The notes beneath the pieces were generated by a model that had not been told where the DNA came from, made no database searches, and saw only the letters and a list, made by a program, of their open reading frames with translations. DNA of 24,060 nucleotides from positions 1 to 24,060 of the IMG/VR virus record IMGVR_UViG_3300043772_001204. One strand, written 5' to 3'. The DNA comes from a virus. Position numbers and translations under genes: made by a program. Shown in pieces: positions 20,212 to 24,060 of the stretch (its first letter is position 1; the number at the start of each line of letters is the position of its first letter).

Positions 20212-20817
20212 TCAGGTGAGGTCAAACCACAGGTAGGAGAAAGTAGCGGCAGCCTGGTCAATCGCGGCAGCAGACGAATTCACTGCATACACCGTAACCG
20301 TGTTCGCGGCAGTCACAGCGGCACCAGCAAAAGCCAAACCCGTAGTGAGGACAGGCACGTTGATTACAACAATGTCACCAGTAGCGGCACCAGTAAGCGT
20401 AAACGTCTTGCTGCCAGTCTCGCCAGCAGCAATCTCATCAAAGTTCACAGAAGCAGTACCGGTAGCAACAAGAGCCTTCAGCGACGCAGCCTTACCCACA
20501 TAACGGGCAGCAATCTCGGCAGCACCCAGGCGGTCACCAGGGTCAGGATCAACAGAGAACACCAGACCCTTATCGTCATTGATGTTCACCGTGCGCGTGC
20601 CGTCAGGGGTGTTCGCAATCTCAACACCATTGCGCTTAACGGAAATGACCACACCAGGGGTATCAACACCCGTGTAGTAGGTCTTTGTGGTAGTGATCGT
20701 GTCGGGAAAAGACACGGATGAGCTGAGGGCCGCGTTTGAAAACCACGACCCTCCAGTGAACTCAACGACAAGAGTGTCGCTGGCACCGTTCGATACGGTG
20801 ACAAAACCACCAGACAT
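20212..20817 (-). CDS. probable virion protein, beta-rich
   Basis: This 201-residue protein is rich in T, S, V, A and G with alternating strands, including a C-terminal Ig-like part (SKTFTLTGAATGDIVVINVP), ending FSYLWFDLT. It could be a decoration, tail or appendage protein; no family recognised. A very strong ribosome site, AGAAGGAG, lies seven bases upstream of ATG 20817, and hairpins stand on both sides, as for a highly expressed structural gene. Confidence 0.65.
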   Translation of the reverse strand: MSGGFVTVSNGASDTLVVEFTGGSWFSNAALSSSVSFPDTITTTKTYYTGVDTPGVVISVKRNGVEIANTPDGTRTVNINDDKGLVFSVDPDPGDRLGAAEIAARYVGKAASLKALVATGTASVNFDEIAAGETGSKTFTLTGAATGDIVVINVPVLTTGLAFAGAAVTAANTVTVYAVNSSAAAIDQAAATFSYLWFDLT

Positions 20818-20878
20818 AACTATTCTCCTTCTAGAGAGTGTTTCTCCTCACAGCTCCTCGCTAGTGAGGGCACAACAA

Positions 20879-20903
20879 AGGTGCGCCCACAAAGGGCGCA
20901 CCT
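20879..20903 (-). terminator. hairpin between small ORF and virion gene
   Basis: AGGTGCGCCC and GGGCGCACCT form a perfect 10-bp stem with a 5-base loop. In the leftward direction TTTGTTGTG follows, so a terminator is likely. If so, the virion gene at 20817 needs its own promoter within 20818-20878, where none is obvious, or termination is partial. Confidence 0.65.
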
Positions 20904-20913
20904 GTAGGGGTGT

Positions 20914-20967
20914 TCAGTCTTCGTCGTATTCGACGTATCCGAGGAAGTCCCAGATGTCGTCGTCCAT
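20914..20967 (-). CDS. 17-residue acidic peptide ORF
   Basis: The frame MDDDIWDFLGYVEYDED has AAGGAG five bases before its ATG, a better ribosome site than many longer genes here have. It ends 11 bases before a strong hairpin. It may be translated as a microprotein or work as a leader peptide controlling the downstream terminator. Nothing else supports it. Confidence 0.35.
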   Translation of the reverse strand: MDDDIWDFLGYVEYDED

Positions 20968-20985
20968 AACCACTCCTTATAGGCA

Positions 20986-21063
20986 GGGGCTGTTAACTAT
21001 GACCGTTCCGAACTTCCCATAAGTGGAAGTCAAGCTCGGCTTATGAGGGGTGGCGTTAACCCC
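20986..21063 (-). promoter_or_regulatory. structured intergenic segment
   Basis: GGGG (20986-20989) and TTAAC (20993-20997) can pair with GTTAA (21055-21059) and CCCC (21060-21063). Inside, ACTTCC/GGAAGT (21012-21030) and CATAAG/CTTATG (21018-21045) overlap, so they can form only alternately. It lies between the genes at 21069 and 20967 and contains no gene. It may be a leader or processing structure. Confidence 0.35.
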
Positions 21064-21068
21064 TAGGT

Positions 21069-21371
21069 TCAGGACGCCTCAGCGGCAGGGACTTGGCTCC
21101 ATGTCTTTGCGTCTTTGTCGAACACGTTATTGACCGCGATGGACTCCCAGTCCCCGTCCCAGCCGATGCCGTCAGCGAGGGCTTGCAGGTCGGTGCAAGG
21201 CCACGGCTGGAAGGTGTATTCGCAATCCGTGCAATGGGTGCAGATGAATACCTCAGCGGGGTAGTGCTCGCGGAGTTCGCTCCAGTAGTCCGTGATCTTC
21301 TGGGGAGCATCGGATCGGGCATGGATTTGTCCCATGACCTGCATCACCTTGTCGGTGCTGACCTCAGTCAC
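21069..21371 (-). CDS. hypothetical protein with four cysteines
   Basis: This 100-residue protein contains ICTHCTDCEYTFQPWPC, with C44, C47, C50 and C59 as a possible zinc site, after a helical N-terminus (MQVMGQIHARSDAPQKI). GTG 21371 has AAGGGGG six bases upstream. Located among tail-fibre genes, so it could be a small tail accessory or moron-type gene. No family recognised. Confidence 0.6.
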   Translation of the reverse strand: MTEVSTDKVMQVMGQIHARSDAPQKITDYWSELREHYPAEVFICTHCTDCEYTFQPWPCTDLQALADGIGWDGDWESIAVNNVFDKDAKTWSQVPAAEAS

Positions 21372-21381
21372 GGCTTCCCCC

Positions 21382-21618
21382 TTATGGCAGGACGAGGGTG
21401 GCGATCTCCTCGTCTGTGAATCCTAGCGTCTTGAAGCGGCTAACGGCAGCGGCGCGGGCGGCCTGTCGGGCCTCCTCGGCAGCAACCCGCTCAGCCTCCG
21501 CGACAGCGGCGGCGGCGGCGTCTGCCTCACGCTGCGCGATCTCCCCGGCGGTCAGGGGCCGCTCGGTCACGGTGCCGTCCGTGCAATCAACAATGACGGC
21601 GATGGGGGTGTCAGACAT
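21382..21618 (-). CDS. small alanine-rich coiled-coil protein
   Basis: This 78-residue protein begins MSDTPIAVIVDCTDGTVTER. A long alanine/glutamate helix follows (QREADAAAAAVAEAERVAAE), and the C-terminus FKTLGFTDEEIATLVLP is UBA-like. Short proteins of this layout sit beside tail-fibre genes in many phages and may help fibre assembly. AAAGGAG lies seven bases before ATG 21618; the longer open frame upstream has no such site. Confidence 0.7.
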   Translation of the reverse strand: MSDTPIAVIVDCTDGTVTERPLTAGEIAQREADAAAAAVAEAERVAAEEARQAARAAAVSRFKTLGFTDEEIATLVLP

Positions 21619-21628
21619 GGTGGCTCCT

Positions 21629-22147
21629 TTATGCCTTGGAGATGCCGTACAGGAAGAATGACGAGCCGCTCTTGAAACTGGCAGCATCCTCAGTTGTGAA
21701 ATCTATGCTTGTCACCGCTGACGTTACTGAGCTAAACAACGCCGCATGGGCAGCCATAGTGGCAGCAGTAGCGTTGTTCTCAGTCATTGAAATTGCACTT
21801 ACAGACTTTGCAGTCGTTCCCGCATAGTTGGGAATGTAAATCTCTATCGACGCAAATGTGTTGGAGGTGCAAGCGGGATCAGTAAGGAAGCCAAGCCCCC
21901 GTGTGGGAGACGTCGCTGATCCGGTACCTGAGCCTGTCCCGTATAGGTAGCGATGCGATGACTGATTGGTGCTATTGAGGTTCATGTAGAGAAAGTCAGC
22001 CTGTCCGACCGTGAGGTCGCCGCTGGATGACCGCGCTGAGATTACGATGTAGAGATCGGTGTAGGTGCCAGGGATGGATGAGAAGGTGACTGTGGCGGTA
22101 TCGCTGCCCAGCACATTCTTGGCGATCAGCTTCATGGTCGTCGCCAT
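21629..22147 (-). CDS. tandem fibre/receptor-binding-type protein, paralog 3
   Basis: This 172-residue protein shares with the next two genes upstream the frame ...LGSDTATVTFSSIPGTYTDL, then YLYGTGSG, then a central strand series and a C-terminal FFLYG. The IPGTY-(T/Q)(D/H)L motif recurs in many phage tail-fibre and capsid-fibre proteins and suggests a jelly-roll carbohydrate-binding fold. The start ATG lies within the stop of a 12-codon frame (TGATGG), so translation is relayed. Last of the three copies. Confidence 0.7.
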   Translation of the reverse strand: MATTMKLIAKNVLGSDTATVTFSSIPGTYTDLYIVISARSSSGDLTVGQADFLYMNLNSTNQSSHRYLYGTGSGTGSATSPTRGLGFLTDPACTSNTFASIEIYIPNYAGTTAKSVSAISMTENNATAATMAAHAALFSSVTSAVTSIDFTTEDAASFKSGSSFFLYGISKA

Positions 22148-22185
22148 CAGCGGCCCCCTGTCCTGAACTCATGGGTTAACGTCAT
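22147..22185 (-). CDS. 12-residue relay peptide MTLTHEFRTGGR
   Basis: The frame starts on an ATG inside the upstream paralog's stop (TGATG) and its own TGA contains the next paralog's ATG. It matches the 15-residue frame between the other two paralogs as MTLTxxFRTxG, with mostly synonymous differences. It may be a real micropeptide or a translational relay. Confidence 0.45.
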   Translation of the reverse strand: MTLTHEFRTGGR

Positions 22186-22691
22186 CACGCCGCCTTCAAT
22201 CCAAAGAGGCTGAACGTGGAGCCCGAAGCAAGATTTGGCCCATTCTCGGGGTAAAGCAAGATCGACGTAATTGCGGACGTAGACCGCCACAGGTTCACCG
22301 TGGCACCCGTCAGACTGTTATCCGAGTTCCGCGACAGCACAGTCTTGAACACGTTCGTATTGGCGTAACTCATAAAGTCGATCACGGTCGCGCAGAAGAT
22401 TCCCGAGGAGGAGTTAGCGGCAGGAAAACTGTCCACGGTTGCCAGCGTTAGATTAGAGTTTCGCGTGCTCAGAGCCGATGTGCCGTTGCCGTACAGGTAG
22501 GTGCGCGAGTAGTTGCTTCCTGAGTCGGAGTTGAAACGGAGGAGGAGAAAGTCATTGGTCGCGGAGCGGGTAGACCGGGCAAAGGCAACTAGGCGTAGAT
22601 CGGTGTAAGTACCGGGAATGTCGCTGAACGTGACCGAGGCCGCGTTACTTCCAAGGGTCTGCGAGGCGATCGGCTCATACGTCCTAGGCAT
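22185..22691 (-). CDS. tandem fibre/receptor-binding-type protein, paralog 2
   Basis: This 168-residue protein contains IASQTLGSNAASVTFSDIPG followed by TYTDLRLVAFARS, RFNSDSGSNYSRTYLYGNG and the C-terminal SGSTFSLFG. It aligns over its whole length with its two neighbours, so the array arose by tandem duplication, but residues between the shared motifs have diverged strongly. The probable role is a distal tail or head fibre that touches the cell surface. The start is relayed from the end of a 15-codon frame. Confidence 0.7.
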   Translation of the reverse strand: MPRTYEPIASQTLGSNAASVTFSDIPGTYTDLRLVAFARSTRSATNDFLLLRFNSDSGSNYSRTYLYGNGTSALSTRNSNLTLATVDSFPAANSSSGIFCATVIDFMSYANTNVFKTVLSRNSDNSLTGATVNLWRSTSAITSILLYPENGPNLASGSTFSLFGLKAA

Positions 22692-22731
22692 CAGCCACCC
22701 CCAATGTTCGGAACTGTGTCGTTAGAGTCAT
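22684..22731 (-). CDS. 15-residue relay peptide MTLTTQFRTLGVADA
   Basis: The ATG overlaps the upstream paralog's stop (GCATGA), and the frame ends seven bases inside the next paralog. It shares M-T-L-T-x-x-F-R-T-x-G with the peptide at 22147-22185. The arginine codon is CGA here and AGG there, and leucine is CTA against TTA, so the peptide rather than the DNA looks conserved. Confidence 0.45.
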   Translation of the reverse strand: MTLTTQFRTLGVADA

Positions 22732-23297
22732 GCGCGCACCCCGTACAGGGCAGCCGTCGTGTACTGACCAAATGTCTGTGACCCTTGATAGATAGACAGC
22801 GACGTAATGGCGCTACTGCTGTTGATCCACACGCCGCTGAACATTTGCAGGTAGCCTCCCGCGCCGTTCACATCGGCACCGCTCAGAGACCGAATGACCT
22901 TGTTCTTGCTTGTAGACGTGTAGTCAAGGATGTCCACGACCGAAGCGCCGAAGGTGCTAGCCCAACTAGAGCCACCTGTTGTGCCAATCAGCACCATTCC
23001 GCTGGATGTACTGGCCCCTGCCGCTGCTGACGCTCCATCCCCATACAGGTAGTGCGTTGCATAGTTCGCGGCTGTTGTGTCGCTATTGAATCGGCATTGA
23101 GCAGATGACACGACGGTCGTACTCGTAAACCGCGCGAGGAGCCGAATCTGTAAATGCTGGTACGTCCCAGGGATTGAGGTGAACTCAATGCTGGAAGCCC
23201 CGCCGCTGCCCACCGTCACCGTGGCAATCGACTCGAACGCGCCGCCAGGGAACACACCGAACCCAGCCAGCGACCCGAACTGACCCACAATAGGCAT
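22728..23297 (-). CDS. tandem fibre/receptor-binding-type protein, paralog 1
   Basis: This 189-residue protein has a glycine/phenylalanine-rich N-terminus (MPIVGQFGSLAGFGVFPGG) that may attach to the virion. The shared module follows: FESIATVTVGSGGASSIEFT then SIPGTYQHLQI, FNSDTTAANYATHYLYGDG and a C-terminal TAALYG. The longer N-terminus distinguishes it from the other two copies. ATG 23297 is seven bases from AGGTGAT and overlaps a two-codon ATG-CGC-TGA frame (23297-23305) that begins in the upstream stop. Confidence 0.7.
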   Translation of the reverse strand: MPIVGQFGSLAGFGVFPGGAFESIATVTVGSGGASSIEFTSIPGTYQHLQIRLLARFTSTTVVSSAQCRFNSDTTAANYATHYLYGDGASAAAGASTSSGMVLIGTTGGSSWASTFGASVVDILDYTSTSKNKVIRSLSGADVNGAGGYLQMFSGVWINSSSAITSLSIYQGSQTFGQYTTAALYGVRA

Positions 23298-23304
23298 CAG
23301 CGCA

Positions 23305-24060
23305 TCACCTGTACTGCGCCCAAGCCCCAAGCACCGTGTAAGTCGGGGTGCTTGCGGTCTTGATGATCGTGAAGGTAAAGCTGTCAATCCCCGCTGTCTG
23401 ATTCGCCTGAGCCGCAGTCGGCAGACTCGACCCGTTCAACCATCGCGGCGTCACCCCGGTCCCGTCGATCTGAATCGTTGTCGGGTAGTAGGCCGTCGTG
23501 CCGTTAGCGATAATCCACGACACCGTGATGGCGTCACCCGTCGCGAGCAGGCTATTCAGCGTGTTCGACGCATCCCCGCGAATGTTGATCGTGTGATTCG
23601 CGGTGGCGTTGGTCGAGTAGAACCAGACCCCAGCGGTGAGGACGTTGATCGCGACGGTGCCCGTGGCAGCCGAGGCGACCACATTGAACCGTTCCTCAGG
23701 CGCGAGCTGGATGATGCCCGTGGTCACATTGGTCCACGAGGCGTTGGTGCCGTCAGTCGTGAGGAGGCGGTTCGCGTTGGATGTCTGACTGGGCAGGCTG
23801 ACAGGGGCGGCAGCCCACTTGAGGCCCGTCGAGGTGGACGAGTCAGCCGTTAGGACCTGATCATTAGAGCCGACCGATAGGGCCGTGACAGCCGTCCCGT
23901 TAGAGGAAATCAGGCTGCCTTTTGAGCCGCTAATTAGGGCTTTAGTGACATACTGCGTATGAACGTCCGTAGAGTTGTCATTAACGTGTGAGTTCGTCTC
24001 ATCGAAATCACGAGCTGACACACCATGCCGGAACACAGCACCAGCATTGTGAGACACAGC
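23305..24060 (-). CDS. tail-fibre-like protein (cut by window edge)
   Basis: Open from the right edge; about 250 residues are visible and the N-terminus lies outside. The stretch ISGSKGSLISSNGTAVTALS followed by VGSNDQVLTADSSTSTGLKW is the repeat type found in many phage fibres, and NRLLTTDGTNASWTNV is a second copy of that kind. The C-terminal domain (about the last 140 residues) is a beta-rich tip. GTG at 24057 is in frame but is probably internal. It leads the series of fibre paralogs. Confidence 0.75.
   Translation of the reverse strand, partial: AVSHNAGAVFRHGVSARDFDETNSHVNDNSTDVHTQYVTKALISGSKGSLISSNGTAVTALSVGSNDQVLTADSSTSTGLKWAAAPVSLPSQTSNANRLLTTDGTNASWTNVTTGIIQLAPEERFNVVASAATGTVAINVLTAGVWFYSTNATANHTINIRGDASNTLNSLLATGDAITVSWIIANGTTAYYPTTIQIDGTGVTPRWLNGSSLPTAAQANQTAGIDSFTFTIIKTASTPTYTVLGAWAQYR

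Follow-up and report, generated by a model that had tools for sequence, protein, structure and literature searches.

Rows of tandem fibre genes in some environmental phages are interrupted by mini-genes of 12-15 codons that, as judged from sequence, most likely pass ribosomes along the row. This would be a known type of translational coupling in an unusual place. The case described here comes from a 24,060-base DNA (hereafter the window), which is a whole virus record and carries two such micro-ORFs, m1 and m2. If translated, they would rank with the smallest recurrent phage cistrons, and would show how fibre arrays can be kept at set ratios while the fibre bodies diverge. They also bring a warning: the conservation of a micro-peptide may largely result from start, stop, and ribosome-binding signals stacked in a short stretch.

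The fibre array and its micro-ORFs

The right end of the window carries a minus-strand row of fibre-like genes, in the order A, B, C, and D (Table 1). B, C, and D are paralogs, B and D having 33-38% identity to C. The predicted structure of fibre C is all-beta (mean pLDDT 84.6). Its closest solved structures are weak matches, mostly beta-sandwich folds, with TM-scores up to 0.43; hence, "fibre" is a label drawn from position and family matches, not proof. At the protein level, fibre C matches three phage records. With regard to possible hosts, fibre relatives were found in just three contigs, of which two belong to an actinobacterial MAG and the third to a Polynucleobacter MAG. The profile of fibre B, rebuilt from its matches, recovers B itself at 8e-49. 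At the nucleotide level, the 4-kb array region had no match in phages and a 141-nt junction query had none in plasmids; the sole match of a 61-nt m1 query was 21 nt long, at chance level, in four Arthrobacter phage records.

Table 1. Features of the fibre array in the window.
Feature	Position	Strand	Remarks
Fibre-like gene A	23305-24060	-	5' end beyond contig; PHROG 5906 match, C-terminal half
Two-codon frame ATG CGC TGA (MR)	23297-23305	-	fills A/B gap; TGATG overlap at both ends
Fibre paralog B	22728-23297	-	
Tandem stops TGA CTC TAA	22722-22730	-	fibre B frame
Micro-ORF m2, MTLTTQFRTLGVADA	22684-22731	-	between fibres B and C; ATGA overlap at start
Shine-Dalgarno of fibre C, GGGGGT	22697-22702	-	inside m2; from sequence and pairing energies in relatives
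Fibre paralog C	22185-22691	-	168 aa; predicted all-beta
Shine-Dalgarno-like site for m1, AAGGCGG	22190-22196	-	last codons of fibre C (..LKAA-stop)
Tandem stops TGA TGA CGT TAA	22176-22187	-	fibre C frame; overlap "MTLT"
Micro-ORF m1, MTLTHEFRTGGR	22147-22185	-	between fibres C and D; TGATG overlap at both ends
Shine-Dalgarno of fibre D, AGGGGG	22154-22159	-	inside m1; from sequence and pairing energies in relatives
Fibre paralog D	21629-22147	-	172 aa

The codons of m1 are ATG ACG TTA ACC CAT GAG TTC AGG ACA GGG GGC CGC TGA. The stop codon of fibre C shares its A with the m1 start codon, and the m1 stop codon shares its A with the ATG of fibre D. Those of m2 are ATG ACT CTA ACG ACA CAG TTC CGA ACA TTG GGG GTG GCT GAT GCC TAG; its ATGA closes fibre B and its last 8 nt lie inside fibre C. 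A sequence-only reading of this DNA had described both frames as filling the fibre gaps and overlapping the upstream stop and the downstream start, and both were found as claimed. The codon differences it had quoted between residues shared by the two peptides are also correct. It had missed the MR frame of the A/B gap. In contigs with a different type of fibre B, a simple TGATG or TAATG stands at the A/B position, where the window has MR.

A nucleotide consensus of m1 and m2 matches the window three times, against a shuffle average of 0.32, and none of 100 shuffles reached three. Matches free of mismatches are limited to the two micro-ORFs and an inverted site at 21057. Inverted m1- and m2-like DNA lies downstream of the array at 21051-21075 (+) and 20992-21017 (+), the first at 84% over 25 nt, and a related motif (CCTAGGGGTTAAC, sense) recurs downstream of arrays in several relatives. 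The stretch at 21051-21075 was considered in terms of candidate inverted recombination sites.

Recurrence in related virus contigs

Related loci were collected with a fibre-domain profile, and every junction between neighbouring fibre genes was listed, whatever lay between them; a junction was left out if the model start lay past position 6 or if the genes were more than 300 nt apart. The counts rest on the matches listed (at least 599 stretches in the scans), some near-identical contigs being counted more than once. Like the pairing counts and the all-haplotype silent-change counts given below, they include five contigs chosen by peptide pattern (L050, L060, L070, L072, and L075) and one found by DNA pattern (L158).

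Among the matches listed, related virus contigs show 312 distinct fibre-fibre junctions. The genes overlap or are less than 25 nt apart in 258 of these, TAATG being the commonest form. The gap is 25 nt or more in 54 of the listed junctions, and 49 of the 54 contain an ATG-started micro-ORF, which begins -1 to +11 nt from the upstream stop (mostly -1 or +2) and ends at most 15 nt from the next start. Among the remaining five, L029, L107, and L147 are in-frame N-terminal extensions of the next fibre, L085 has an ORF that ends 17 nt further on, and L200 is devoid of ORF.

Gaps of 25-75 nt (52 of those listed) contain 49 micro-ORFs where 21.6 are expected, although related rows are not independent. 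With the ATGA fixed, an ORF of this type survives in about 80-95% of B/C gap shuffles for most homologues. The corresponding figure for the C/D gap is about 8% in the window and ranges over about 3-45% among its homologues; for the AT-rich micro-ORF forms, it is 2-5%. An open frame alone is unremarkable for the B/C gap; what stands above chance is the recurrence in relatives.

Several micro-ORF families were distinguished: m1 (17 haplotypes), m2 (15 tested and four divergent), MTTN[FL]RK, and MLT[TI]NF. Unrelated peptides, MTTNFRKAA and MLTTNFIYRLAIQSRKAGN, occupy comparable junctions in AT-rich relatives. The pattern MTTN[FL]RK..TAATG, which is blind to fibres, matched 12 contigs, all of them at fibre genes. 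Eleven of these matches lie between two fibres and one (L248) follows a fibre that ends the stretch examined; L248 encodes an identical nonapeptide, from which its DNA departs by two silent changes, and its frame relation is different. Similarly, 19 of 20 matches of a fibre-blind DNA pattern in viral contigs are at fibre genes. With a peptide-selecting pattern, 26 of 49 matches lie away from fibre genes and look like background.

The sequence-only reading had named decay through frameshifts or stops as what would refute it. None was seen for the C/D micro-ORF. At B/C, the peptide was lost in L050 and L085 and partly in L075, but an ORF is still present.

Ribosome-binding signals and proposed coupling

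Across the 49 listed junctions with a micro-ORF, Shine-Dalgarno pairing is seen at both starts. The fibre start that follows the micro-ORF pairs with the anti-Shine-Dalgarno at a median of -9.4 kcal/mol, and the micro-ORF start at -6.3 kcal/mol, as compared with -2.7 kcal/mol at a control site inside the same fibres and -6.3 kcal/mol at direct junctions. A second in-frame stop within four codons is found at 46 of the 49 micro-ORF junctions vs. 20 of the 258 direct ones, among those listed. The codons of the usual fibre end (..YGIKAA-stop) contain AAGG, which serves the next fibre directly in most relatives. At a junction with a micro-ORF, this AAGG serves the micro-ORF, and a stronger site within the micro-ORF serves the next fibre. 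Since the fibre C-terminus ..YGIKAA encodes the Shine-Dalgarno sequence of the next gene (e.g., window 22185-22199), its conservation is partly regulatory.

The genes are co-directed and joined by ATGA- or TGATG-type overlaps, as in translational coupling by overlapping stop and start codons. The start offset shifts the frame in L028 (+4) and in L153 (+7). In L025, the overlap between the end of the micro-ORF and the start that follows is lost. Short gaps persist through these changes. That the frame relation is not kept while short gaps persist argues against a fusion by frameshift or readthrough, a reading that was rejected because L028 and L153 differ in frame where a fixed relation would be needed.

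We consider it somewhat more probable than its converse that each micro-ORF is a short cistron which couples neighbouring genes of a tandem fibre operon. They are probably translated; we infer translation, re-initiation, and a benefit from the overlaps, Shine-Dalgarno sites, tandem stops, conservation, and recurrence, which are themselves present in the DNA. A ribosome that finishes a fibre at TGATG or ATGA would restart at once on the micro-ORF, aided by AAGG or AAGGCGG in the last codons of the upstream fibre. It would then read 12-15 codons through the Shine-Dalgarno sequence of the next gene, end on its start codon, and restart again there. The strong Shine-Dalgarno within the micro-ORF could also load fresh ribosomes, and the tandem stops would catch ribosomes that miss the first stop, thereby preventing fusion of two fibre chains. 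The unit would thus punctuate a series of fibre modules, the bodies of which diverge or are swapped.

Against a relay, an m2-type ORF is nearly unavoidable given ATGA, and a strong Shine-Dalgarno could start the next fibre alone. In the five RNA segments folded, there was also nothing out of the ordinary for a ribosome to unfold. Moreover, as 258 of the 312 listed junctions couple directly without a micro-ORF, none is needed for coupling. Thus, because the micro-ORF is added to rows that are coupled elsewhere without it, the benefit would be tuning, insulation, or a stronger restart, not coupling itself. The hand-over of ribosomes from fibre to fibre that the sequence-only reading had imagined is plausible and now better supported than before. 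Indeed, the architecture is real and recurrent, persists through changes of frame and of junction type, and shows Shine-Dalgarno pairing at both starts.

In a broader hypothesis, which we regard as doubtful though open to argument, phages whose fibre cassettes are exchangeable would have acquired, by evolution, micro-cistrons that serve as standard punctuation. Tandem stops, a restart, a strong Shine-Dalgarno, and a second restart would together free the output of every fibre gene from any influence of the body swapped in. Such micro-cistrons would be a natural counterpart of the synthetic bicistronic leader, and would have arisen more than once in the fibre family.

Conservation of the peptide and of the nucleotide signals

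From shared residues written with different codons, the sequence-only reading had concluded that selection acts on the peptide. This claim is supported in part: an excess of silent changes is seen in the reading frame and is absent in the two other frames. However, the first four residues follow from the start codon and the upstream tandem stops, the GG follows from the next Shine-Dalgarno sequence, and third positions are far more conserved than in the flanking genes. The peptide thus appears at best weakly selected, much of it being explained by nucleotide signals.

Codons 1-4 are ATG ACN YTA AC, and the upstream fibre frame reads the same nucleotides as TGA (TGA) CNY TAA. Of the 17 m1 haplotypes, 16 have NTA as codon 3 with an A after it, as do all 15 m2 haplotypes; by comparison, YTA accounts for 20% of the Leu codons of fibre genes at these loci and for 9% in the window genes. 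In L158, Leu is replaced by Val (GTA) and the TAA is kept. The Shine-Dalgarno of the gene that follows lies in codons 10-11.

Codons 5-9 were compared by silent and replacement changes counted on a minimum spanning tree; the counts are therefore approximate, and the tests, which ignore recombination, are indicative. With fibre-anchored haplotypes, that is, without the six pattern-found contigs (L050, L060, L070, L072, L075, and L158), 14.5 changes are silent and 17.5 are replacements, for an expected silent share of about 0.22 (combined p about 0.007). The numbers are 9.5 and 9.5 for m1 (p 0.003) and 5 and 8 for m2 (p 0.18), the m2 tests having been run without the divergent forms L021, L050, L075, and L085. 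When all haplotypes are included, 19 of 41 changes are silent (p 0.0008) and third positions show an excess (p 0.004). The dN/dS value, about 0.3-0.5, is confounded by the stops, the Shine-Dalgarno, and the conservation of the island in which the micro-ORF lies. Identities at codon positions 1, 2, and 3 of the micro-ORF are 0.81, 0.93, and 0.71 for m1 (23 junctions) and 0.92, 0.90, and 0.66 for m2 (18 junctions); in the fibre bodies near those junctions, position 3 falls to 0.32-0.41 and positions 1-2 to 0.37-0.62. The identity island and this position pattern together indicate conservation at the nucleotide level, with a codon rhythm within it.

Alternative explanations

The island of identity is also what would be expected of a conserved DNA linker, whose homology would let fibre bodies be swapped by recombination, the ORF being secondary. 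Across the 23 m1 and 18 m2 junctions, identity peaks at the junction, third positions included, and the window and L004 have identical m1 while their fibres C and D are just 55% and 51% identical in protein. However, a linker does not predict the codon periodicity inside the island and needs no ORF, since direct junctions without a micro-ORF show a weaker island. We regard this explanation, which is compatible with coupling, as rather unlikely. That the micro-ORF is a relic, a fibre gene minus its body whose first and last codons were left and stayed open by chance or coupling, seems quite unlikely. Its appeal comes from m1, where MxxTHE resembles MxxTYE at the start of fibres (for residues 2-6, six of seven variants give p 0.002-0.02 and one gives p<0.001), from the end of MTTNFRKAA, which resembles the fibre end ..KAA (p<0.001), and from AAGGCGGCATAATGGCTAA, which in L153-type contigs matches the usual fibre junction. 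These resemblances are motifs of a few residues, though, and m1 ends are unlike fibre ends (p 0.2-0.8). Moreover, m2 starts resemble fibre starts weakly (p 0.09-0.3) and MLTTNF/MLTINF starts not at all (p 0.3-0.9), and a pure relic would hardly be kept across 23 distinct m1 junctions.

The silent and third-position excesses described above would fit a functional peptide, for instance a small component of the tail or a nascent peptide that acts in cis. We hold this to be distinctly improbable, given that comparable junctions in relatives carry different peptides, that position 8 of m2 can be R, Q, T, W, or A, and that the m2 peptide is lost in L050 and L085, while most arrays have none. A promoter or another regulatory DNA or RNA element is highly improbable: a TTAAC..GTTC-like stretch does recur, in inverted orientation at 21051-21075 and, in several relatives, downstream of the array, but a search of 20800-24060 for sigma-70-like promoters, the type covered, and a search of Rfam gave no match, and folding is not unusual. 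Other candidates were rejected. In a junction RNA hairpin model, all five folded segments were no more stable than shuffles (z +0.3 to +1.9). Peptide profiles of 14 micro-ORF peptides did not match a detached N-terminal tag such as those of L029, L107, and L147 (p 0.08-0.72), and dispersed copies of a mobile element were not found among the nucleotide matches described above.

Relationships with known short coupled ORFs

The sequence-only reading knew of no named system of this kind. This has to be corrected, as short coupled ORFs that deliver ribosomes have been described, among them MIRUs and bicistronic designs (PMC12548453, PMC4633059, and PMC10367133). Hence, the micro-ORFs of fibre arrays are not a new category. 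In the open-licence PMC literature, we found no paper on micro-ORFs between fibre genes, and what sets them apart from the known systems is the place between two long phage fibre genes, plus the tandem stops.

According to a 2025 review (PMC12548453), short ORFs can deliver ribosomes to the next gene, and the mycobacterial interspersed repetitive units (MIRUs) are cited as a natural case; they are inserted at start codons with a 4-nt overlap (Supply et al., 1997, cited therein). As summarized there, MIRUs share with the present frames a short ORF at a start codon, a short overlap with the next gene, and little effect on the host operon. The micro-ORFs likewise overlap the stop and/or start codons of their neighbours in an operon. 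On the description given, however, MIRUs are dispersed mobile repeats, whereas here each phage fibre array has two frames that give no indication of being mobile, and the nucleotide matches described above do not include numerous copies scattered over unrelated operons of the genome.

Bicistronic designs use a short leader cistron (Mutalik, 2013, cited in PMC10367133), which, as described there, holds a second Shine-Dalgarno and ends on the target start (TAATG). At the listed micro-ORF junctions, the Shine-Dalgarno of the second cistron is likewise inside the leader ORF (median -9.4 kcal/mol at 49 junctions), and the leader stop overlaps or abuts the target start (49 of 54 listed gaps within 15 nt). 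The fibre micro-ORFs differ in being natural, in lying between two long genes rather than at a 5' end, and in the extra stop for the upstream gene. In mycobacteria, coupled small ORFs have been described for which the identity of the peptide need not be important (Shell et al., 2015; PMC4633059). They have the same overlap tetramer to the next gene and are thought there to deliver ribosomes whatever the peptide; in contrast, those described start leaderless transcripts, whereas the micro-ORFs here would be fed by the upstream gene. Finally, the MR frame (23297-23305) may be compared with the two-codon minigene of axe-txe, also a tiny ORF ahead of an operon gene, whose translation raises txe expression in cis (PMC8708949). 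In that toxin-antitoxin operon, as reported there, stop and start are 15 nt apart, unlike MR.

Additional observations

The family of 18-19 codons formed by MLTTNFIYRLAIQSRKAGN and its relatives lies between fibres in the AT-rich contigs L240 (4906-4965, +), L241 (from 4118, reverse-strand count), and L128 (from about 4504, +). Fibre N-terminal extensions in L029, L031, L107, and L147 have a common look (M-A-I-T-x-I-K-T-S-S ...) and are possibly attachment tags. The window also encodes a tyrosine integrase (8812-9705, +), a sigma-70 region-4-like protein (11321-11944, -), and a C-5 cytosine methylase-like protein (7638-8345, +). A 17-codon acidic ORF (MDDDIWDFLGYVEYDED) is followed at 20879-20903 (-) by a ten-pair hairpin with a T-rich tail, likely a terminator.
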